This document shows positions 4,835-20,093 of a stretch of 64,000 nt of DNA, in pieces. The DNA is from Pseudomonadota bacterium (GTDB lineage Bacteria; Pseudomonadota; Alphaproteobacteria; Acetobacterales; Acetobacteraceae). The stretch lies in assembly GCA_018240635.1 (NCBI GenBank), contig JAFEFJ010000001.1, forward strand, positions 1-64,000, given 5' to 3'. The notes below the pieces were generated by a model. The model searched no databases. It was not told the DNA's origin and saw only the letters and a list, made by a program, of their open reading frames with translations. The position numbers and the translations under genes were made by a program. The number at the start of each line of letters is the position of its first letter. Positions within the stretch are counted from its first letter, which is position 1.

Positions 4835-5959
4835 TCAGTCGACCGCCACGGTGCCGACCTTCACGACCCCATTCGCCGGCGGCGTGATGTCGGCCGCGGC
4901 GCCGTTCAATGCGACCTGCGACACGTTCAGGATCGACGCCGATACGCCATAGGCGACCTGGCTCACGCGACTCAGTGGCAACGGCGCTCCGATCGGAAGC
5001 GCATCGACGAAGGAAGCGACGGCCTGCGCGACGGCACCGGAGAACTGCGCAGTGGTCGCCGGCGCCGCGACGGTGAGCGTCATCGATACATTGACGGTCG
5101 AGATCGCCGGCGCCTGCACCGCGAATGTAGACCCGACGGGGCGGACTGCATCGACTGCGGTTTGGACCGTGCTCAGGAGCGATGCCGACGGATGGCCTGT
5201 CCCGTCATCCACGGTGACGACGAAGTTTCCCGGATGAGCGTTGCCGCTGGCGTCCTGATTCTCCAGGATCGTGTAGAGGAGGCCCTGCTGGATGTTGCTG
5301 ATCGCGTACCCGACCGCCAGCTTGGTCGCCCGCGATCGGCTGTTGATGTAGTTCTGAAACCGTGCACGGAACGCACTGTCGGACTCCGCATCGAGACCGT
5401 TCGCGAAAGGGCCGCTGTTGCTGACATAGTCGATTCCCGGAATGGCCGAAGCCAGAAGGGTAACCGTGTTTGCCTGCACATTGCCGGCCGCCCCCGGCAC
5501 CTGGGCAACCACCGGCAGGTCGGCCGAAGATGCATTTGCCGGAACGACATATCCCGATTGCGTCGGACTCCACGCCGGATTGCTTGCATCCGCGCTGACC
5601 GCGTATGTCTGCGAGCCATCCGAGGTCCGCACCAGCGCGCCCACAGGTACGAAAGCCGTGCCGACCGGCGTATACCGGCTGAAGGTGACGACGCCCGTGG
5701 CGGTCACTGCCGGCAGCCGAAGAAGCGCAAAGTCCGCCATCCAGCTATCAAGATCCGGTCCAACGCTCGTCGACGCCCGCGTGGTCTGCAGGACCTGAAG
5801 GATCAGCCACTGCATCCAGAGGCCGACCGAAGCATTGGCTTCGAGCAGGGCGCGAAGCACGGAACCGACACTCATGTCCACAAGCTGCGCCGCCGAGGAC
5901 TGGACAGCGGCTGCCATGTTCTGGACAAGGGTGCCGAAGTTCTGCAACGAGAGCTGCAT
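4835..5959 (-). CDS. Phage baseplate J-like protein (gpJ/gp47)
   Basis: A 374-residue baseplate wedge protein. It shows the hallmarks of the Baseplate_J family: an N-terminal helix ending DMSVGSVLRALLEA, then GPDLDSWMADFALLRLPA near residue 70, the segment PVGTAFVPVGALVRTSDG near 105, and the central QVPGAAGNVQANTVTLL and GLDAESDSAFRARFQNYI near 150-215. The C-terminal third (STVNVSMTLTVAAP) is the beta-rich part that contacts neighbouring wedge subunits. It sits 3 bases after the gp25-like gene and one base before the gpI-like gene, the usual order gpW/25-gpJ-gpI of contractile tails. Confidence 0.9.
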   Translation of the reverse strand: MQLSLQNFGTLVQNMAAAVQSSAAQLVDMSVGSVLRALLEANASVGLWMQWLILQVLQTTRASTSVGPDLDSWMADFALLRLPAVTATGVVTFSRYTPVGTAFVPVGALVRTSDGSQTYAVSADASNPAWSPTQSGYVVPANASSADLPVVAQVPGAAGNVQANTVTLLASAIPGIDYVSNSGPFANGLDAESDSAFRARFQNYINSRSRATKLAVGYAISNIQQGLLYTILENQDASGNAHPGNFVVTVDDGTGHPSASLLSTVQTAVDAVRPVGSTFAVQAPAISTVNVSMTLTVAAPATTAQFSGAVAQAVASFVDALPIGAPLPLSRVSQVAYGVSASILNVSQVALNGAAADITPPANGVVKVGTVAVD

Positions 5960-6857: not shown

Positions 6858-7943
6858 TTATCCCGTGACGGAACCGACATCGTCGGAAGGGGCCGTGGCC
6901 TGTGACCGCGGAGAGGAGTTCTTTGCGCGGATATGCTGGACGAATCCGTGGTCCAAAGACAGATGCCGGTCGATCGAATCCATGAAATACAGCTGGTCGA
7001 AATCGGTTCCGGTCCCCGAGAGACGGAAGCTCGAACGGCGGTCGAGCGAGAGCTCGCCCGGCATTGTCCCCTCGATGACCCGCTCATGGCTGGACAGCTC
7101 AGCCAGCTTCCTCTGCGCGATCGTCAGCGCGTCGGACATCGTAAGATTAGGCCGGACATAAACGTAGTTCTGCGACGGCCCGGCCGAGAAGCTGCCGCCA
7201 CCCGGGGACGACCGCGCGGTTTGCACGAATGCGGTTTGCTGTCTCGTGTTCCAGCTTTTCACGGTCACCGTGATGTCCCGGGCCAAGGTGAGAGCACGCT
7301 CGAGCCGGAGATCCTCGAAATCGGACGATGAGAGGACTGCAGACGCAACCGATGGCTCCGAGAATGGCTGAAAGTGGAGACTGTTTCCGCTCACATAGAC
7401 GTCGTAGTCTTCCTTGGCGGCGAGGAAAGTGATCAGGTCCCATTCGGTCATGGAACGGGTGAACTGATTGAGCGTTATGTGATCGTGCTCATCCTGGTAG
7501 TAGCGGCCAACAGGCGTGGAGGTGTCCGCGACCACAGGCGTCAGACTATGACGTTCCGCAAGGATGCTGGCGATTTCGCTTGATGTGCGATTGGCGAAGG
7601 TTTCCTGGGTCCGTGTTTCGATCAGACCCGAAGTCAGGTCCCGCCCTTCGAGGTAGACGAGCCCGGCCGGAAGATCGATCGACACCACGTCCACGAGGCC
7701 CTGAACGAGGCTGACATAGCTAAGTCCGCCATCGGTGCTGAATTGCACGTCGACAAGAATGTTGGATTCCGACGCCCAATACTCAGGTGTCGCCACCAGA
7801 TCCGCCCCGAGAGCGACGGTGGCGCGGAAGCGATCGGCGCCATAATGGCTGGTCGACGTGACTTGTGCATCGATGCAGCCAGACACCTGGTTGCCGTTCG
7901 CCAGCAGCTTTACGCGCGGCGACCGCCATAGCTGTTCGAACAC
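6858..7943 (-). CDS. Phage baseplate hub protein gpD/gp44-like
   Basis: A 361-residue late control D type hub protein, starting with GTG (VFEQLWRSPRVKLLANG). The N-terminal half has the tube-like beta fold with YWASESNILVDVQFSTDGG near residue 60 and YLEGRDLTSGLIETRT near 100. The segment IASILAERHSLTPVV and the WDLITFLAAKEDYDVYV stretch around 140-185 match the family, where this hub joins the tail tube to the spike trimer. It is separated by 52 bases from the LysM-type gene upstream and 5 bases from the spike gene downstream. I see no lysozyme domain. Confidence 0.8.
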   Translation of the reverse strand: MFEQLWRSPRVKLLANGNQVSGCIDAQVTSTSHYGADRFRATVALGADLVATPEYWASESNILVDVQFSTDGGLSYVSLVQGLVDVVSIDLPAGLVYLEGRDLTSGLIETRTQETFANRTSSEIASILAERHSLTPVVADTSTPVGRYYQDEHDHITLNQFTRSMTEWDLITFLAAKEDYDVYVSGNSLHFQPFSEPSVASAVLSSSDFEDLRLERALTLARDITVTVKSWNTRQQTAFVQTARSSPGGGSFSAGPSQNYVYVRPNLTMSDALTIAQRKLAELSSHERVIEGTMPGELSLDRRSSFRLSGTGTDFDQLYFMDSIDRHLSLDHGFVQHIRAKNSSPRSQATAPSDDVGSVTG

Positions 7944-8924: not shown

Positions 8925-9102
8925 GCCGGTCCTCGCGCATCGCCATGCTCTCTTCCGAGGCGGAGTCTTCGGACGGCACTCTGATCCTCACCGGGATTCT
9001 CACCATGGGCTGGCCGGCATCATCAACCGAGCTCGCCGCGCCTGCGAAAACGAGCCTTCCACTCAACCGGAGGGCGCTCTTGGACGTGTCGGATGTTGGC
9101 AT
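8917..9102 (-). CDS. Small tail-module protein of unknown function
   Basis: A 61-residue frame starting MPTSDTSKSALRLSGRLVFAG. The ATG overlaps the TGA of the tape-measure-like gene by one base (TGATG), and its stop overlaps the next start by 8 bases, so it is packed like a real coupled gene. It contains QPMVRIPVRIRVP, which looks like one or two beta strands, and an acidic-basic tail (SEDSASEESMAMREDRHG). I do not recognise it. Position suggests a minor tail or baseplate part. Confidence 0.5.
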   Translation of the reverse strand: MPTSDTSKSALRLSGRLVFAGAASSVDDAGQPMVRIPVRIRVPSEDSASEESMAMREDRHG

Positions 9103-10214
9103 CAGTTGTCTGCCGGCGCGCCGGCCCAAGTGGGTGACATACGGGTATCGAAGCCGGTCTGTCCGGCCGGCGGACGGCCCACCTGGCGCTCCAGATAGCG
9201 CGTTATCCAGCGGCCAAGTGCGAGACCGTCGAGGAGGATTTCCCCGTGGAACGAGCCGGCCGCCGCCGACGGCGATGTCGGCGCAACATCTCCCGGCAGC
9301 GATCTGGCGCTCGCCTGTCCGGCCGGCTCCGTCACCGGATGGCGGCGCGGCGGCTCCACCGGAGCAGTGGCGCGCGCGAGGGGTGGCATAACCGCCGCTG
9401 CCGGCGCCGAAGGAGCCGATGGCACCGCATTGATTGGCGGCGGAGACGGACGGACGGCCGGACTGGCCGCAATCGGACGGGCATCAGGAGCGATTGGCGG
9501 CAGCTGGGCCGGGAGCGTGGATGACGAGGTGGACTGCCCCGCCCGCGCATCATTCAACCTTGCCGGCGGCGAACTCGGCTCACGCCCAGCAAGATCGGCT
9601 CCTTGAATGGGAGCAGTCCGCCGCTCCGGTTCGAGCGGAGCCGCATGCGTGGAGACGCGCTCCGGTGCAGGATCCTGTAGCGGAACATCGGCCGTGGAGG
9701 GAGTGTGGTTGGCAGCAGGGATCGGAGCGGCGGCCGGAGTAGACGGAGACGCCGTCACGATCCCCGGGCTATCGGCGCCGCCGGTCATGCGCGGGGCTTC
9801 GGAAGCGAGAGCCGGGCTTTCAAGGATCGGCGCGGATTGCTTCCGCGCGTCCAGCCTACCCGCCTCTTGAGCAGCGTGTCTGGCATCGCCCGCTGGCGCA
9901 GCTTGAGATCCGATGCCCGTCTGCTCCGATGGAGCGACGGGACCAGCCGCATCGTGATCATGCTCCGGCACGGGCCGTAGGTCCGGCATCGCGGGATGCC
10001 CAGGCGGCGCTATCGCCGCCGCCTGAGGCTGCGCAACGTGGACGACCGGCGGGATCGTGACGGTTGCAGCAACCTGGCGGAGCAGGTCGATCTGGCTGAT
10101 GGTGCTCTTGGTCGCTGCATCGAGTGCCACGAGTTCGCGCCGGATCTGCGCGATCCCTTCGGACACGCCGTCATCCAGCGCGATGGAAATACCGATCGTA
10201 TAGGCATCAATCAT
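9102..10214 (-). CDS. Probable short tail tape measure protein, Pro/Ala-rich
   Basis: A 370-residue protein in the tape measure position: after the tail completion gene and before the baseplate genes. Residues 1-50 (MIDAYTIGISIALDDGVSEG, then IRRELVALDAATKSTISQID) look like the helical N-terminal part of tape measure proteins. Residues 55-315 are very rich in Pro, Ala and Ser and look disordered. Residues 318-370 form a conserved-looking end (GEILLDGLALGRWITRYLERQVGRPPAGQ, split here for length) reminiscent of the ends of minor tail proteins. Normal tape measures are long and helical, so this one is odd. The start at 10214 lies one base after the previous stop at 10216; a longer frame from 10241 exists. 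Confidence 0.5.
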   Translation of the reverse strand: MIDAYTIGISIALDDGVSEGIAQIRRELVALDAATKSTISQIDLLRQVAATVTIPPVVHVAQPQAAAIAPPGHPAMPDLRPVPEHDHDAAGPVAPSEQTGIGSQAAPAGDARHAAQEAGRLDARKQSAPILESPALASEAPRMTGGADSPGIVTASPSTPAAAPIPAANHTPSTADVPLQDPAPERVSTHAAPLEPERRTAPIQGADLAGREPSSPPARLNDARAGQSTSSSTLPAQLPPIAPDARPIAASPAVRPSPPPINAVPSAPSAPAAAVMPPLARATAPVEPPRRHPVTEPAGQASARSLPGDVAPTSPSAAAGSFHGEILLDGLALGRWITRYLERQVGRPPAGQTGFDTRMSPTWAGAPADN

Positions 10215-10215
10215 C

Positions 10216-10590
10216 TCAACGTTCCGCCAGCCAGCGCGCAAGATTCGCGGCCATTGTCGTCACGAGATCGCCGGCCATCGTCGCAGCAGCGCTCCCGAGG
10301 AAAGGACGCGGTGGAATGTTCGGCGTGCCGAGTTCCTGATAGACCGCAACATCACTGGAGGATCCGATCACTGCATCGGTGCCCTGTGCGTCATAGCCGA
10401 CTGAGTTCCGCAGGGATCCGTTCTCCAGCCAGGGAGTTTCATGTTCCGATCCGGGAGGGTGAGAGAGACTCTCGATGACATTCCGCTCGACGGCCGCGGC
10501 GGCTTCGGCGGTCTGCGCGGCGAGCGCGTCGGGAACGGCAAGCCGATCCAAGCGGGCAATGGCTTCACGCAGCCCCCTGACTGCACTCAC
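10216..10590 (-). CDS. Phage tail completion / gp10-like virion protein
   Basis: A 124-residue protein with a GTG start (VSAVRGLREAIARLDRLAVPD) overlapping the stop of the frameshifted chaperone extension by four bases. It has the layout of HK97 gp10-like or virion morphogenesis proteins: a helical N-terminus (EAAAAVERNVIESL), then TPWLENGSLRNSVGY, and YQELGTPNIPPRPFLGSAAA near residue 85, a segment typical of that family (LGT..mP.RPFL). In related phages the protein caps or completes the tail. Placement after the chaperone pair and before the tape measure is unusual but seen in some contractile phages. Confidence 0.65.
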   Translation of the reverse strand: MSAVRGLREAIARLDRLAVPDALAAQTAEAAAAVERNVIESLSHPPGSEHETPWLENGSLRNSVGYDAQGTDAVIGSSSDVAVYQELGTPNIPPRPFLGSAAATMAGDLVTTMAANLARWLAER

Positions 10591-10760
10591 TCTTGGCTCT
10601 CCCACCGGAGCGTCGTCCAGTCGAAGATCCGGCCCGCCAAGGTACCGAGGACAACGACGAACGCCAGACGCTCGTCGTCGGGGAGGTTGAACGCGACGTC
10701 GAAGGGCACCCCGTTCCTGACCAGATAAAGGCAGTCGATCAGGTCGGGGTGCCTGCTCAG
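10587..10760 (-). CDS. Tail assembly chaperone, frameshift extension (GT part)
   Basis: This 57-codon segment in the -1 frame has no in-frame ATG, GTG or TTG at its beginning, yet reads as a good protein: LSRHPDLIDCLYLVRNG, then VPFDVAFNLPDDERLAF, and GRIFDWTTLRWESQE. It starts exactly where the slippery heptamer GGGAAAC (10766-10760) ends, so it is read as the C-terminal part of a 177-residue fusion with the 120-residue chaperone. This is the lambda G/GT arrangement found in many long-tailed phages. Its stop overlaps the GTG of the next gene. Confidence 0.75.
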   Translation of the reverse strand: MSRHPDLIDCLYLVRNGVPFDVAFNLPDDERLAFVVVLGTLAGRIFDWTTLRWESQE

Positions 10761-11119
10761 TTTCCCGCGTTGGCCACGGCTTCCTGTACCGATGGCACAG
10801 GGCTGTTTCGGAACGCGCGCGCCACCTCGGCAATGCCCGCCTCACCCAGCCGTCCGACCAAGGATTCGATTTGGGCCTCGTTGCAAGGGGTCGGAACCGG
10901 AATGCCGTCGATCGACGTCACGGAATAGGCAAGAACGGCAAGACCCAACCATGGTTCATTCTGGCTCAGGGTTGGTCCTGCAGCCTTGAAGAGCCGCAGT
11001 TTGTCGAGGACGCTGAGCCGCCGGAACGAGATCTTCATCCCATGCGCGGTCTCCACCGTCTGCTCGGCGTCCTGGGCGGATGAAGCCGCCGCCTGCCTGC
11101 TGCCCCCGTCCGCCGGCAT
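10757..11119 (-). CDS. Tail assembly chaperone (G part)
   Basis: A 120-residue protein starting MPADGGSRQAAASSAQDA, with the ATG overlapping the stop of the tube gene (TGATG at 11121-11117). The core MKISFRRLSVLDKLRLFKAAG and PWLGLAVLAYSVTSIDGIPVP match the tail assembly chaperones of contractile phages that bind the tape measure during tail assembly. The last codons are GCG GGA AAC TGA: the ribosome meets the heptamer GGGAAAC immediately before the stop, which allows a -1 slip into the following 57-codon extension. Normal termination gives the short form, slippage the long one. Confidence 0.8.
   Translation of the reverse strand: MPADGGSRQAAASSAQDAEQTVETAHGMKISFRRLSVLDKLRLFKAAGPTLSQNEPWLGLAVLAYSVTSIDGIPVPTPCNEAQIESLVGRLGEAGIAEVARAFRNSPVPSVQEAVANAGN
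10760..10766 (-). promoter_or_regulatory. -1 programmed ribosomal frameshift site GGGAAAC
   Basis: On the minus strand the bases read G GGA AAC in the zero frame, a canonical X XXY YYZ heptamer, and the next codon is TGA. A -1 slip gives GGG AAA followed by CTG and an open frame of 57 codons with credible protein sequence and no start codon of its own. Position between tail tube and tape measure is exactly where such sites occur in tailed phages. Confidence 0.8.
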
Positions 11120-11550
11120 CAGGACACGCGCCAGCGGCGAGCGGAGAAGAACTCGAGCCGCTGCTTGACGCTTGCATCGCCCTTCCACTGGCCGGCGTTC
11201 GGCAGTTTGAACACGACGCTGTCGAATTGGAATGTGGTGGTCGATCCGTCGGGCTCGGTGACGTACTGGTAGAGAGTCCCGAGCGCCGGCTGCTCCCCGT
11301 TGTAGAAGGCTTGTTCGGCATTGGCGATCAAGTCGTCTACGGCGGTATTGCCGCGCTCCACCTCGAACTGACCTTCCCACCCTTTCGGCAATTCGGCGCC
11401 CATCTGATTGCCGTCCAGCCGGCTGACGCGCACCGAGGAAGTGAGCTGGCGCGCCTCGAAGCCAGTCACATGTTCGAGGTCGATCCGGTTTCCCGACACG
11501 ATGACGACGACCTGGGTATCCCGGCCGATGGAAAACACATTCAGAGCCAT
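11119..11550 (-). CDS. Phage tail tube protein
   Basis: A 143-residue tube protein (MALNVFSIGRDTQVVVIVSG...) following the sheath gene by 12 bases, the universal sheath-tube order of contractile tails. It shows the beta-rich tube fold: VVIVSGNRIDLEHVTGFEARQ, then SSVRVSRLDG, a loop with PKGWEGQFEVERGN, and a final FQFDSVVFKLPNAGQWKGDASVKQ. Residues WKGDxSVKQ at the end are typical of Mu/P2-like tube proteins. It forms the inner tube through which the DNA or spike passes. Confidence 0.8.
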   Translation of the reverse strand: MALNVFSIGRDTQVVVIVSGNRIDLEHVTGFEARQLTSSVRVSRLDGNQMGAELPKGWEGQFEVERGNTAVDDLIANAEQAFYNGEQPALGTLYQYVTEPDGSTTTFQFDSVVFKLPNAGQWKGDASVKQRLEFFSARRWRVS

Positions 11551-11562
11551 TTGCCCGACTCC

Positions 11563-13125
11563 CTACGACACCTGACCAGTCGGCAACGTCTGTCGCGATA
11601 CCTGCACCGTCTGTCCGCCCTCGACGTTCACGATGAACTTCTCATTGATTGCCTGGTACTGGATCTGAACGTCGCACTGCACGTAACCAAGCGATGTCCG
11701 CGAGGATGGATTGTTCGATGCATCGCAGACGACACTGAATGGCAGGCTTCCGTCGGTGCTGCCCAGCAGCCCTTGATTGAACATGTTCTGCAGGAAACTG
11801 AGCTGAGTCGCCCGGACACGCTGGAACAGGCCGGCATTGATGAGTTGGCCCACATACTGCCCCATGCCAGCGGCAAGGGTCGCGGCGATGTAGTTAGTCA
11901 GCCGCGTGTAGTTGTCGCCATCGACCGCCTGGTTGGAGGAGGAGTTGTAGCCTCCGCGCACGCCCCAATAGCTGCCGCCCGGCTGCGGGTTGGCGATGAC
12001 ATCGATCCCGCCGGAAAAGATCTGGCTCAGCTCGGCCGCCGAGTAGCTGGTGTTCTGTCCGCTGCCCGGCAGGCCGGACTTCTGGCTGCCCACAACCCCG
12101 TATAGCGGCTTGTTCAGGCTCGACTCTGCCGGCGAGAGATTCGCAAGCCGGCCGGCGACGAAGCCCTGGGGAGATACAAGCCTGATCGTGCCATTCACCT
12201 GATCGGACCACCAGAGCCAGTCACCGAACAGGAGCTTCGCGGAATAGGCGTTCAGGCCCACCTGCTGCTTGATGGCGACGGCATTCGTGATCGTGTCGCC
12301 AGCAGGGCCCGTCAGCATCATATAGACGCCTTCCTGCATGCCGAACGAAGCTTGGGTGGTATACTGAGTGGCATCGTCGGCATCGGCGAGCAGTGCGATG
12401 CCGCACCCCTGGCCGCGAAGCGCATACATGCCCTTGCGCGGCGTGATGTCGCTTCCCACAAGGGTCATCGCCGTCACGTTGGCGGCGCCGTCCGTTCCCG
12501 GAGCGCCGGATCCAAGCGTGATGGCGAAAGCCGCCGGAGGCGCGGTCGTGCCATTCGGTGTCGCGACCACGAGTTGCGAGGGACCGCGCTGAGGACCGAG
12601 GCCCTGGTTGACCGCAGATGCCAGGGACGACCAGAACGAGGCGCCGGTGCCAGAGATGTTGCTGTAGACCTCCGGCGCAACGCCAGGCAGCGCGACAGTC
12701 AACGTCCATGCACCTACTGCCGAGCCAGGCGACAGCGTCAGGACGATCTGATTGCCCAACGTGCCGGTGTAGAGCGCGGTGAACGTGAATGCGGCCGATG
12801 GGACGCTCGCCTGCGCCGCGACATCGGTCCCGTCCGTCACTCTGACGCATCGGAAGTTCTGCGCACCCTGCTGGATGGCCGTCGCTATCTGGGTTCCCAT
12901 GTCGTATTTGCGCGGAATCACGGCGCCGAATGTGACGGCGTAGTCCGACATCGTCGCAACGATGACGGGATGCCCGATCGGTCCCCAGGGAGCGCTTCCC
13001 ACCACACCGACGATGTCGGTGGGCACGCCGTTGAGGACCAGATTCTGAGGCGCGACGATCTGGACGTACAGATCGGGAACGATGAGCGCAGTGGTGTTGA
13101 TGGTACCCTGCTGTACAACCGGCAT
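11563..13125 (-). CDS. Phage tail sheath protein
   Basis: A 520-residue sheath protein. The N-terminus (TALIVPDLYVQIVAPQNLVL) and the GVVGSAPWGPIGHPVIVATM stretch at 40-60 are the standard sheath beginning. The middle (ITPRKGMYALRGQGCGIALLADADD, 225-250) and the C-terminal domain (IDVIANPQPGGSYWGVRGGYNSSSNQ, then YTRLTNYIAATLAAGMGQYVGQLI) match the conserved sheath core with its handshake ends. It is followed directly by the tube gene. The protein contracts on attachment. Size is normal for the family. Confidence 0.92.
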   Translation of the reverse strand: MPVVQQGTINTTALIVPDLYVQIVAPQNLVLNGVPTDIVGVVGSAPWGPIGHPVIVATMSDYAVTFGAVIPRKYDMGTQIATAIQQGAQNFRCVRVTDGTDVAAQASVPSAAFTFTALYTGTLGNQIVLTLSPGSAVGAWTLTVALPGVAPEVYSNISGTGASFWSSLASAVNQGLGPQRGPSQLVVATPNGTTAPPAAFAITLGSGAPGTDGAANVTAMTLVGSDITPRKGMYALRGQGCGIALLADADDATQYTTQASFGMQEGVYMMLTGPAGDTITNAVAIKQQVGLNAYSAKLLFGDWLWWSDQVNGTIRLVSPQGFVAGRLANLSPAESSLNKPLYGVVGSQKSGLPGSGQNTSYSAAELSQIFSGGIDVIANPQPGGSYWGVRGGYNSSSNQAVDGDNYTRLTNYIAATLAAGMGQYVGQLINAGLFQRVRATQLSFLQNMFNQGLLGSTDGSLPFSVVCDASNNPSSRTSLGYVQCDVQIQYQAINEKFIVNVEGGQTVQVSRQTLPTGQVS

Positions 13126-15475: not shown

Positions 15476-16798
15476 TCAGCCGATGTGCTCGACCATCACC
15501 GCCCGCTTGAAGGCGGCATTCGTCGCGGTCGGCACGGTGGCGGGATTGGTCGTGGTATCGGACGGTGCGCAGAACCCGCCGATCCAGTACCAGGACTGGG
15601 CAATGATCTGCTGCAGCCGGTCGATCGGCTCGCGCGTGACCATCGCCACATCGTCGACAATGGAGACGATCGAGTCCGCCGGTGCCACGTCGGCGGCAGC
15701 CATGCCTGCGAAGTCGCCTTCGATCAGCGCGCCCTGCCCGCAGATGATCGGACGACGCACCATCAGCCCGGTCAGGCTGGGATGCGGCTGCACATAGGCC
15801 TCTGTCGTGGGAACGAAACGCAGGCCGAGGAAGCCGTTGACCATGCCCTGGCTGAACACATGGTTGTCGGACGTCGCCCCCTGGAAGAGCTGCTTGAAGT
15901 CGGGGTCCGCAAACAACTGGCGAGCCGACACGGGATCTAGATAGCAGTTATAGACGCCGTCGATTTCCGGCACGGCATTCATGCGAAGCTTCGACACGGC
16001 ATCTAGAAGGCAGCCCATCGTCAGCGTATCTCCAGCCGCGAGCGCGGCCGTGCTGGCCCGCTGCGATGGGCGGACGATCACCGACGCGGTCGACGCCACC
16101 AAGGCGTTGCCGGCCGTGCCATCGGAGACGGAGACATTGCCGCTGAACGTGAGCTGACCCGAGATGCCGTTCGGCGTCGTCGATACGTTGGTTGCGTCCG
16201 CCACGGCCGCAATGAGCGTATAGGTATTCGCCCCGACCACGACGGTGAGCGCGTTCGAGGCGCTGACCGGGGTCTGGACGCCGTTGAGGAAGGGGAACTG
16301 GAAACCGCGGATGTCATCGACCGAGATCGTGGGACCAGCGGACCCCAATGTGGTCCGGACGCGGGTATTGCCGCCGAAATAGGCGTTGAACAATGCATTG
16401 CGCGCCAGTTCGTCCAGACTGCGCGCAGCTTGCTCGCCGTTCACATAGGCATTCTGGAGAAACTGGCTGGCAATGCCGACGCGGCTGGTCACCATGTTGA
16501 GATCGGTGGTTGCCGCGTAGTGATTGATCGAGATCGTGTACTGCTCCACGCCCCAACTGGTCGGGGTGAGGCCGTTGTCCAGGTTCGTGTTGGATGCCGG
16601 CGCGAGCGGAGTGGTAACCGCAGGCTTCAGGCCGGCGCGGGTCTTGGTGAGCGTCTCGCCGATCCCGACCGAAATCGCCTCACGGTCCGCGCACGCGCGA
16701 TATCCCAGCCGCGAGCGCAACGCCTGCTGGAACTCACGCTCCAGAAAGCCCTGCTGGATGATCGGCTGAAGGACCGCGGGAAAATTCTGAATAGGCAT
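15476..16798 (-). CDS. Phage major capsid protein
   Basis: A 440-residue protein at the major capsid position, after the scaffold gene. The N-terminal part (LQPIIQQGFLEREFQQALRSRLGYR, then TISINHYAATTDLNMVTSRVG) and NAYVNGEQAARSLDELARNALFNAYFG form the long helix seen in P22/N4-like HK97-fold capsids. Residues 170-250 seem to be an inserted beta domain rich in Val, Thr and Asn. The C-terminal part (YNCYLDPVSARQLFADPDFKQLFQG, then FLGLRFVPTTEAYVQ and DDVAMVTREPIDRLQQIIAQSWYW) completes the fold. No protease gene is next to it, which fits an uncleaved coat protein. Confidence 0.75.
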   Translation of the reverse strand: MPIQNFPAVLQPIIQQGFLEREFQQALRSRLGYRACADREAISVGIGETLTKTRAGLKPAVTTPLAPASNTNLDNGLTPTSWGVEQYTISINHYAATTDLNMVTSRVGIASQFLQNAYVNGEQAARSLDELARNALFNAYFGGNTRVRTTLGSAGPTISVDDIRGFQFPFLNGVQTPVSASNALTVVVGANTYTLIAAVADATNVSTTPNGISGQLTFSGNVSVSDGTAGNALVASTASVIVRPSQRASTAALAAGDTLTMGCLLDAVSKLRMNAVPEIDGVYNCYLDPVSARQLFADPDFKQLFQGATSDNHVFSQGMVNGFLGLRFVPTTEAYVQPHPSLTGLMVRRPIICGQGALIEGDFAGMAAADVAPADSIVSIVDDVAMVTREPIDRLQQIIAQSWYWIGGFCAPSDTTTNPATVPTATNAAFKRAVMVEHIG

Positions 16799-16852: not shown

Positions 16853-17266
16853 CTACCGCTTGATGAGTGCGGCCCTGGCCGCACGGTATTCAGCGTCGGT
16901 CATCTCCATCGCGGCCTTCTGGCGCGGCGCCTGTGCTGGCGGCGCATTTGACGGACTCGACGATGACGGCACCGGAAGGGAGAACAGCCAGGGCTTCGCC
17001 TTCTTCAGCTCCTGCATCAGAGATGCGCCACCTTCGATCTCGCCCCGGTCATTGATGCGGAGGTCCGGTGTCTCGATCAGCTTGATCCCGTCGAGATCGA
17101 CCATGCCGGCGCGCAGAGCCTCGGCCTTGAGTTCGGATCGGATCAAGCGTCCCTCCGCGTGCTTCTGCAGGTCCACGATCTGCCTTTCGAGCATCTCCGC
17201 ACGCTGCCGAAGCTCCGTCACGGCGACGGCCTGATCGTCGGGAGGCGTATCGGTTTGATTGGTCAT
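16853..17266 (-). CDS. Phage scaffolding-like protein
   Basis: A 137-residue protein starting MTNQTDTPPDDQAVAVTELR. Residues 15-45 are a predicted coiled coil (VTELRQRAEMLERQIVDLQK), followed by LIRSELKAEALRAGMVDLDGIKL, which is the usual phrase of gp20/scaffold-like proteins, and a basic tail (MTDAEYRAARAALIKR) that would bind the capsid subunit. It lies between portal and major capsid genes. The ATG overlaps the portal stop (TGATG at 17268-17264). The assignment is based on these traits; sequence similarity of scaffolds is always low. Confidence 0.65.
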   Translation of the reverse strand: MTNQTDTPPDDQAVAVTELRQRAEMLERQIVDLQKHAEGRLIRSELKAEALRAGMVDLDGIKLIETPDLRINDRGEIEGGASLMQELKKAKPWLFSLPVPSSSSPSNAPPAQAPRQKAAMEMTDAEYRAARAALIKR

Positions 17267-18687
17267 CACTGGCCTCCGCTATGGTTCATCTCTGAGTCGA
17301 TGCGGGCGATCTCGGCCGGGACGTCGGCGATATCGTAGGTATCGGCGATCGACTTCACGGCGGTCTCCCTGCTAATCTGGCCGGACTGCGCGAGCGTCGA
17401 GAGCGTCTGCGCATCCTTCTGCCGGTCATCCGCCGAGGGCGGATACCAACGTGGCCATTTCAGGGTGAGTCGTTCATCGCGCTGCAGCACAGGGGCTGGC
17501 CGGCCCATGACGACGAGCGGGTAGACAGCCGATGCGTCAAGTATCATCCGGGCAAGCTCCAACAGCGCGCATTCGCCGTAACTGATGCGGAGATTGTCGG
17601 CGAGCCAGATCAGTCCCTGGTTCAGTAGTTCCAGCGCTCGTCCCGACTGCGCGGCGGAAAGCCGGTCGGCGTTGCTGCGGTTGCCGTGCACGCTCTCAAG
17701 TGCGAACTCTCGCAGGGTGCGGACGTACTCAATGACGGCGGCGGAGGCGGTCCCGCCGATTTCGAGGAGTTTGGCATCGCCTTTTTCGCTGACCACGAGG
17801 GCATTTCCAGCGCCTTTGACGATTTCGGTATCGCTAGTTGCCGGTTCGCGTATCAGGAGAGTGGGATCGCTGCTGTATTTCAGCCCGCGGCCGGCCTGGC
17901 TGAGCTGGTAGTCGATCTCGATCTGCGTTTCGATCGCCGCACGGAAGGTGCAGGCGCCGTCGTCCGCACTGCCCGACGAGGATGGACCAGGCAGATTCCG
18001 TATCCAGACGATGGGAACAAAGCCCAGCTTGTGTTCGACGCTTCTGGCATTGTCGACAACCGGATCTCGCGGCTCGCCGACGGGGACCGGAATGAACCAG
18101 GTCTCCGACTTCGCATTCCAGGTCCGGGTAAACCAGTAGTCGACGGACCGATCTGCAATGTCCTCGTAGCCGGACGCAACGAGCACATCGCCGGACACCT
18201 TGTACCGCTCCGTCACCGAGGCGAGTGTGTCGGGCTGATCCGGATGCCATGACGGCGTCAGGTAGGTGGTGTCGAGAACGCTGACGAATATTCTGCCGCG
18301 CAAAACCCTCATCAGCAGCGCGACGGAGCCCACGGAACCGCGTATCGCGGCGTCCGTCATGACCTGGTTGAGGCGCGCCTCCCGCACGATGTCGGCCAGC
18401 GCCCCGCGGGTGACCTGATCGGCGCAATCGATCGTCGGGAAGTGGCCCTCGCTGAACAAGAGCGAGACGCTGTCCTCGACCACGACACGGCAGAGCGCAT
18501 AGCGCACCGAAGGCCGCCGCCGCCGGAGGGGGACATACTCTCCTCCCGCCCCGCGCTCTTCGTGGAACTGATACGGGAGCACATCGTAAAGCGTGCCGTC
18601 GAGAATGCGCTTGAGGATGTCGAGCGCACGCGTCCGCGGCGAATAGTCGCTATCGCGAGGGATGAGGTCGCAGATCGTCTCGAACAT
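17266..18687 (-). CDS. Phage portal protein
   Basis: A 473-residue portal. It starts MFETICDLIPRDSDYSPRTR, with a GGGA-type ribosome site just upstream; a longer frame to 18807 would run into the terminase gene and is less likely. Typical elements are LFSEGHFPTIDCADQVTRGALADIV near residue 85, RFVSVLDTTYLTPSWHPDQP-type wing strands near 145, the stretch HKLGFVPIVWIRNLPGP near 220, DYQLSQAGRGLKYSSDPTLLIR near 260, and the helical SVHGNRSNADRLSAAQSGRALELL near 330, where the portal clip and stem lie. It forms the dodecameric DNA gate of the head. Confidence 0.8.
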   Translation of the reverse strand: MFETICDLIPRDSDYSPRTRALDILKRILDGTLYDVLPYQFHEERGAGGEYVPLRRRRPSVRYALCRVVVEDSVSLLFSEGHFPTIDCADQVTRGALADIVREARLNQVMTDAAIRGSVGSVALLMRVLRGRIFVSVLDTTYLTPSWHPDQPDTLASVTERYKVSGDVLVASGYEDIADRSVDYWFTRTWNAKSETWFIPVPVGEPRDPVVDNARSVEHKLGFVPIVWIRNLPGPSSSGSADDGACTFRAAIETQIEIDYQLSQAGRGLKYSSDPTLLIREPATSDTEIVKGAGNALVVSEKGDAKLLEIGGTASAAVIEYVRTLREFALESVHGNRSNADRLSAAQSGRALELLNQGLIWLADNLRISYGECALLELARMILDASAVYPLVVMGRPAPVLQRDERLTLKWPRWYPPSADDRQKDAQTLSTLAQSGQISRETAVKSIADTYDIADVPAEIARIDSEMNHSGGQ

Positions 18688-18743: not shown

Positions 18744-20093
18744 TCAGCGAGTCAGCAGATTCGTCGCCACGTAGCGTGACTCGGTGCGTGCACGCAGGAG
18801 ACGCCAAAACGCACGCGACAAGGCATCGACCTGGTCGTCCTTCCGGCCATGCGGAAACTCCCGCAGCTCCTCGAGGAAGTGTGCATTCCAGGCCGCCCGG
18901 ACGATGGACACGTTCCCGGCTTCAACCTGCGCTGCGACTGCTGACGCACGCAGCGATTTCTCGCCTGTTTCGAGGGTCGCTTCGGCGTGATGGCCCGCAA
19001 GTTTCCGGACAAACTGCGATGCGACGGACTTGCCGGCCGAGCCGGGGTCCTGCGGCAGGGAGATCAGGACGTCTCTGCCATCCGTCCTCGCCGTATCGAG
19101 CAACAGCTGCTCGACTTTATATGGAGAGGCGCGCACGCGAATCACATCGAGAACGATGAAGTGGCCATCGTTGGTGCGATGGAGCTTCAATCCCACCGTC
19201 CAGTCAGGATCGTTGTCTTCAGTCTTTGTCGTGGCCGCAAAGTCCCATGCCCGCACTGCTGATAGCGGCTCGACTGTCGGTGCTGATTCGATGATGTCGA
19301 TCACGGCGACCTTGAAGAGCGATCCTTCGAGCGGTCTTGGCGACTGCTGATAGAGGGCCCACCAGGCCCTTTCTCCTACCGCGAGGCGTCTGCGCAGCAG
19401 CGCCGTCGAGTCTTCCCATTCGGGCCAGAGCGCCGTTCCGACCGAGCGCCCGAGCGGATCCTCTTCTTCCGCAAGGGCGGGAAGGCGCAGTACGCGCCAG
19501 TCGGCATCGGACTGACCAAGGAGACGGCCTCCCAGATCTTCTTCGTGCCACCGCGTCATGATCAGGACGATACGGCCCCTCGGCGTGAGGCGCGTGATGA
19601 GGTCGAAGCGGAACCAGTCCCAGGTCTGGTTGCGGATATGGGCGCTGTCGGCCTCGTGCTGCGATTTGATCGGATCGTCGATCAGGATCAGATCGGCGCG
19701 GCGGCCGGTGACGGCGCCACGCAATCCCACTGCCGCATAGCGGCCTCCGAAAGAGGTCTGCCACCTCTCTCTCGAACGGTCGCCCGTGAGGACCGTCAGG
19801 CCGATGTCGTTTCCCTGTTCGTTGACCAAGTCCCTCGCGAGGCGGCTGAAATGCTCAGCGAGGTCCGCCGTATGCGAGGCGGCGATGATCGAGCTGCGCG
19901 GATGTATCGTCAGCCACCACGCGGGAAAGACCACCGAGGTGTAGGTCGACTTCGCCGAGCCCGGAGGCATGAGAACCATCAGCCTGTCGACCCGCCCTTT
20001 CGCGACGGCATCGAGTTCCCTGAGCAACAGCAGGTGATGCGCCATAGGCCCCTGTCCCGCCGGGGCGAGGGCACGCGCAGCCCAGTCCGCCAA
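18744..20093 (-). CDS. Phage terminase large subunit
   Basis: A 449-residue packaging ATPase-nuclease. The ATPase motifs are Walker A MPPGSAKST (residues 42-50), Walker B LILIDD (135-140) and the coupling motif MTRWHEEDLGGR (179-190). The nuclease domain has the expected acidic residues in WDFA (D284), QDPGSAGK (D349) and RKDDQVDA (D419, D420, D423). The start is a TTG; no ATG exists before residue 17. No small terminase gene is visible next to it. It is the first gene of the virion module, so the operon promoter should lie just to its right (20094-20443). Confidence 0.92.
   Translation of the reverse strand: MADWAARALAPAGQGPMAHHLLLLRELDAVAKGRVDRLMVLMPPGSAKSTYTSVVFPAWWLTIHPRSSIIAASHTADLAEHFSRLARDLVNEQGNDIGLTVLTGDRSRERWQTSFGGRYAAVGLRGAVTGRRADLILIDDPIKSQHEADSAHIRNQTWDWFRFDLITRLTPRGRIVLIMTRWHEEDLGGRLLGQSDADWRVLRLPALAEEEDPLGRSVGTALWPEWEDSTALLRRRLAVGERAWWALYQQSPRPLEGSLFKVAVIDIIESAPTVEPLSAVRAWDFAATTKTEDNDPDWTVGLKLHRTNDGHFIVLDVIRVRASPYKVEQLLLDTARTDGRDVLISLPQDPGSAGKSVASQFVRKLAGHHAEATLETGEKSLRASAVAAQVEAGNVSIVRAAWNAHFLEELREFPHGRKDDQVDALSRAFWRLLRARTESRYVATNLLTR

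Follow-up and report, generated by a model that had tools for sequence, protein, structure and literature searches.

Phages with contractile tails of the P2 type produce a frameshifted tail assembly chaperone, E/E+E', from a locus located 3' of the sheath and tube genes, and P2 itself slips on T_TTT_TTG. In E. coli, the -1 frameshift of the dnaX gene takes place on A_AAA_AAG, and involves a Shine-Dalgarno-like stimulator upstream and a stem-loop downstream. In phage lambda, -1 slippage on G_GGA_AAG joins G to GT, and the resulting G:GT ratio of ~30:1 is crucial for assembly (PMC5009743). According to the same source, the haloarchaeal viruses HCTV-1 and HCTV-2 have a g-t frameshift on G_GGA_AAC and A_AAA_AAC. 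In eukaryotic RNA viruses, a stop codon can lie directly behind the slippery heptamer, with a structure downstream (PMC4373837). Frameshifted tail chaperones are already well known, and the mechanism considered here is of a known kind.

The locus described here lies in a prophage within a 64,000-nucleotide stretch of DNA (the window), which comes from a draft genome of 4.47 Mb. Judging from its sequence, the minus-strand segment 11119-10587 very probably encodes the tail assembly chaperone of a contractile-tailed prophage, made as G and GT through programmed -1 frameshifting, as in lambda. The arrangement reported in the first-pass annotation was reproduced when the sequence and its open reading frames were re-read. 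The 0 frame is a 120-codon gene (ATG at 11119 to TGA at 10757), the heptamer GGGAAAC occupies minus-strand positions 10766-10760 in the phase G GGA AAC, and the TGA (10759-10757) abuts it. The -1 frame is open for 57 codons without an ATG, from the CTG at 10760 to the TGA at 10589-10587 (LSRHPDLIDCLYLVRNGVPFDVAFNLPDDERLAFVVVLGTLAGRIFDWTTLRWESQE). The CTG that opens the T frame overlaps the G stop (CTGA), the only GTG and TTG codons of this frame are internal (10709 and 10640), and the closest upstream stop in the -1 frame is at 10844. Coordinates are collected in Table 1.

Table 1. Features of the prophage and of the putative chaperone locus, in window coordinates.
Feature	Position	Strand	Remarks
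Baseplate	4835-5959		
Hub	6858-7943		
Tail completion/Neck1-like gene	10216-10590	-	phrog_5, E 3e-9
T extension, -1 frame, 57 codons + TGA	10587-10760	-	AlphaFold2 pLDDT 87
Hairpin, candidate stimulator	10705-10753	-	MFE, covariation, synonymous-recoding control
0-frame UGA stop abutting heptamer, intercodon position	10757-10759	-	direct stop in 142/157 distinct loci
Slippery heptamer G_GGA_AAC	10760-10766	-	in-frame heptamer in 187/190 homologous loci
G ORF, 0 frame, 120 aa + TGA	10757-11119	-	phrog_20383, E 1.8e-17; AlphaFold2 pLDDT 83
Tail-tube-position gene	11119-11550	-	phrog_12993 (unknown function), E 3.9e-39
Tail sheath	11563-13125	-	phrog_23 tail sheath, E 4e-42; 51% identical to phiKX1 sheath
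Capsid	15476-16798		
Portal	17266-18687		
Terminase	18744-20045		

The locus shares with lambda a small gene next to the gene in tail tube position, a T extension in the -1 frame, and a predicted -1 slip on a G_GGA_AAN heptamer close to the G end (PMC5009743). It differs from lambda in its contractile, sheathed tail, in the Z base of the heptamer (C here, G in lambda), in the stop placed directly after the heptamer, and in a conserved strong hairpin 6 nt downstream, and naming by Pfam or PHROG detected no sequence similarity between the two. The position of a frameshifted chaperone 3' of sheath and tube genes is the same as in the P2-type E/E+E', but the proteins are not recognised as related by Pfam. 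A bacterial -1 slip with a downstream stem-loop is likewise found in dnaX, but no conserved upstream stimulator is present here. HCTV-1 and HCTV-2 use exactly the two heptamers that predominate among the homologous loci, but they are archaeal siphoviruses. With the eukaryotic RNA viruses (PMC4373837) the locus shares the stop directly behind the slippery heptamer and the structure downstream, but the genes and the ribosomes are unrelated.

The prophage is syntenic with Komagataeibacter phage phiKX1 in terminase, portal, capsid, sheath, tube, hub, and baseplate genes. The G gene is found directly 3' of the sheath and tube-position genes, which places the putative chaperone between the tube and baseplate genes. 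The tube-position gene is 39% identical to the phiKX1 gene directly 3' of the sheath gene; its TGA overlaps the G start (TGATG), and the GTG start of the Neck1-like gene overlaps the T stop. This connector (tail completion/Neck1-like) gene separates the putative chaperone from the tape-measure position. The expected position of the tape measure is occupied by a minus-strand ORF (9102-10241) coding for 379 amino acids, Pro/Ala-rich and apparently disordered, for which there was no PHROG match and no match in phiKX1. The window begins with the first base of the contig, only a few kb from the prophage, whose tail-fibre end may therefore be incomplete in the assembly.

Neither G nor T nor the tube-position gene matched any Pfam family, and the PHROG to which G belongs has its function listed as unknown. 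The top PDB match of an AlphaFold2 model of G was the HK97 tail assembly chaperone 2OB9, a weak match (Foldseek E 0.1, VIA Z 5.9, rmsd 4.5 over 98 residues) that is below the level at which a fold can be settled. The second PDB match, YqbN, was also weak (Z 5.2), while several annotated tail assembly chaperones were among the top BFVD matches to the same model. A PDB search with the AlphaFold2 model of T gave no meaningful match. The weak fold matches of the modelled G agree with gene position and architecture, and are suggestive. The tail chaperone identity proposed in the first-pass annotation is supported by the sheathed-tail gene order together with the weak but top-ranked HK97 chaperone match.

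Whether homologues conserve the heptamer, a check named in the first-pass annotation, could be seen in 190 homologous loci taken from host-family genomes, IMG/VR contigs, phage phiKX1, and one other-family genome. An in-frame slippery heptamer, nearly always GGGAAAC or AAAAAAC, was kept in 187 of them (a count of related loci that is uncorrected for kinship). In the first set, 87 of the 88 loci had it (42 GGGAAAC, 42 AAAAAAC, and one each of AAAAAAA, GGGAAAT, and AAAAAAT). The IMG/VR set had it in 79 of 80 loci, the remaining one, metagenome contig L162, being one A short. In the divergent set the count was 19 of 20, including A_AAA_AAG in L200 and A_AAA_AAA in L208; phiKX1 and L219 also have a heptamer. 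The first heptamer base always matches the class (GCG GGA AAC or GCA AAA AAC types), the third base of the codon before the heptamer tracking the class (GGG or AAA) in every case. On a FastTree tree of G and T with the junction codons left out, which allows for kinship, the class changed between GGGAAAC and AAAAAAC at least six times, and no intermediates were seen. Such conservation, together with the repeated class changes, shows that the heptamer is not there by chance, and it strongly supports the programmed -1 frameshifting by which the first-pass annotation had joined G and GT. From this conservation we infer that the frameshift is used; we likewise infer the occurrence of slippage, its rate, and the chaperone role. 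One point against this reading comes from E. coli reporters, in which A_AAA_AAC slipped less readily than A_AAA_AAG (PMC5009743).

Homologues with a start codon in the extension but without a slippery site, which the first-pass annotation had regarded as evidence against frameshifting, were found in two distant relatives only, L064 (G001:C29) and L201 (G297:C99). There, no -1 heptamer is present, T is in the +1 frame of G, an in-frame ATG for T lies in the overlap, and G ends with GCT_TGA or TCC_TGA. It is possible that T of these two loci is made by separate initiation or by +1 frameshifting. They show that the mode of G-T linkage can change in evolution, as elsewhere in phages, and they leave the reading of the window locus unaffected.

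A protein search detected the T extension in 81 of the 200 genomes covered within the family of the host, and a profile search detected it in 120 of 299 order-wide genomes, all 120 belonging to that family. Outside the family, there were only weak matches among 385 class-wide genomes; a search of 299 phylum-wide genomes with an RNA model recovered one real relative from another family (G996). At least 586 relatives are present in IMG/VR. Past the hairpin described below, third positions of the -1 frame vary and first and second positions do not, in line with the earlier judgement that the extension is good protein. This pattern, and the presence of the extension in genomes of the family, indicates that T is a translated protein.

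The heptamer is followed, after a spacer of 6 nt (inside the 5-9 nt expected for a -1 frameshift stimulator), by a hairpin with a minimum free energy of -29.8 kcal/mol (z -5.75) in the window. Its 9-bp outer stem pairs minus-strand positions 10753-10745 with 10713-10705 (GGCACCCCG/CGGGGTGCC), and an inner helix above it pairs 10743-10736 with 10723-10716. In a gap-free alignment of 54 distinct sequences, two-sided changes were found at 14 of the 22 pairs of the full register, and covariation amounted to 91 cells, compared to 54.0 +/- 4.7 in shuffled alignments (0/500). All five covariation measures were above 500/500 shuffles, and slid registers were all lower. As the register had been chosen with the sequences in view, its lead over slid versions in paired cells is to some extent a product of that choice, and the two-sided changes carry more weight as evidence of covariation. 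The outer stem is nearly invariant; L086, L217, and L219 each carry a compensatory change from C-G to G-C at pair 15-59, and L086 carries a second one at pair 18-56.

Because the hairpin region codes for T, synonymous recoding was chosen as a control, and the region was recoded with family codon usage (60 recodings per locus, 149 loci). Native sequences were about twice as stable as the recodings (mean -29.0 and -14.2 kcal/mol, respectively; median z -4.0, and -5.2 at the window locus), and at 128 of the 149 loci, none of the 60 recodings was as stable as the native sequence. Third codon positions in the stem are frozen, GGG being used at 147/149 loci (26% usage) and GTG at 146/149 (44%), while CCG occurs at only 4/149 (53% expected). 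No Rfam family matched the hairpin, and there was no conserved motif 5' of the heptamer, beyond the GC of the alanine codon, that would correspond to a Shine-Dalgarno-like stimulator. A conserved pseudoknot between the loop and downstream sequence was considered and rejected, as the best candidate helix is present in only 23% of the loci. A low-GC subclade of eight AT-rich loci (L209-L216) has kept A_AAA_AAC/T and the adjacent stop (mostly TAG), and no stable hairpin was found in it. Thus, the hairpin is not indispensable, and the heptamer with the stop is the more widespread core.

Of 157 distinct loci, 142 have a stop codon abutting the heptamer (123 TGA, 10 TAA, and 9 TAG), and this status changes at least seven times on the tree of G and T. 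The mean heptamer-to-stop distance reported with PRFect is 26 nt in the SEA-PHAGES set and 36 nt in the Xu set (PMC10885494). At loci where the -1 frame reads Leu-Ser, stop-creating codons are used in 123 of 125 cases, compared to 20.5% expected from codon usage of the same genes; where it reads Leu-Ala, 8 of 17 loci use the rare CTA or TTA, creating a TAG. The adjacent stop is, therefore, not a by-product of the amino acids encoded, though kinship among the loci keeps a binomial figure for these counts from being a true probability. With Ala as the second T residue, the Leu codon is CTG in 0 of 17 loci, though CTG makes up 42% of Leu codons; CTG before Ala would give TGG in the 0 frame. The first-pass annotation had noticed neither the hairpin nor the conservation of the adjacent stop.

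The features of the locus suggest the following scheme. Most ribosomes would stop at the UGA right behind GGGAAAC and release G (120 aa), while a minority would slip back one base on G_GGA_AAC and produce GT (177 aa), with the junction ...AGN-LSRHPD.... The sequence has the potential for tandem re-pairing, from GGA-AAC to GGG-AAA. The hairpin, given its spacing and conservation, may hold the ribosome at the mRNA entry channel. By analogy with lambda, G would coat the tape measure protein and the T part would recruit tail tube subunits. The adjacent stop, if it acts as in the eukaryotic viruses (PMC4373837), probably sets slippage against release factor, and the G:GT ratio would depend in part on the outcome; it would help hold GT low relative to G. 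Tentatively, and with more doubt than confidence, we suggest that the adjacent stop is part of a switch: an intercodon stop and a strong hairpin would make GT output depend on release factor versus slippage. The switch would be the bacterial equivalent of what is seen in Rous sarcoma virus; it would fix the ratio of the two chaperone forms, and would have arisen within a single large lineage of phages.

Another way to obtain T would be as a separate protein coupled to G, made by reinitiation at the overlapping CTG or by a start at the internal GTG at 10709, and several observations could be read in this manner: the CTG that opens the T frame overlaps the stop, L015 has ATGA and three loci have TTG at this place, an ATG for T is present in both distant relatives in which T lies in the +1 frame, and the annotation of phiKX1 has a T ORF of its own. 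However, T opens in many loci with CTA, CTC, CTT, or TTA, which are not usual start codons, and the 17 residues ahead of the GTG are conserved as protein and are, therefore, translated. Conservation of the GTG itself is accounted for by stem pairing, and independent initiation would neither keep the heptamer nor couple its first base to the next codon. We consider separate production of T highly improbable.

The frames might also be joined in transcription, if RNA polymerase slipped on an A run and the mRNA gained or lost one base. Runs of six A residues do occur in about one-third to one-half of the loci. However, the heptamer in the window, like that of more than half of the distinct loci, is GGGAAAC, with three A residues only, and a covarying downstream hairpin is typical of ribosomal slippage, so that transcriptional slippage deserves almost no credence. 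The metagenome contig that is one A short would fit a decayed or misassembled gene that no longer yields T, the shift having arisen by mutation or as an error in sequencing. However, many genera and independent assemblies, including a complete phage genome, show the arrangement again (187 of 190 loci), and constraint is present at both the RNA and the protein level; it is next to inconceivable that the shift is an error.

Programmed -1 frameshifting thus remains our preferred reading, and phiKX1, a complete phage genome, has the same slippery site and hairpin. Its chaperone region (LC644975 31376-31917; L090 11657-12198) is annotated as two hypothetical proteins, the second of which starts at an ATG inside the hairpin, the frameshift having been missed. 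As far as the literature consulted shows, the protein family is new, and so is the compact way in which heptamer, adjacent stop, and covarying hairpin are combined. The locus provides a natural -1 frameshift signal for bacterial ribosomes that is clean and compact and is conserved widely, in which AAC-ending heptamers, weak in E. coli reporters, would have the support of a covarying hairpin. The heptamer (GGG or AAA), the adjacent stop (TGA, TAA, TAG, or none), and the hairpin (present or absent) vary in nature, which makes competition with release factor during slippage testable. A function can be offered for protein families now listed as unknown, in a chaperone gene that annotations such as that of phiKX1 split in two.
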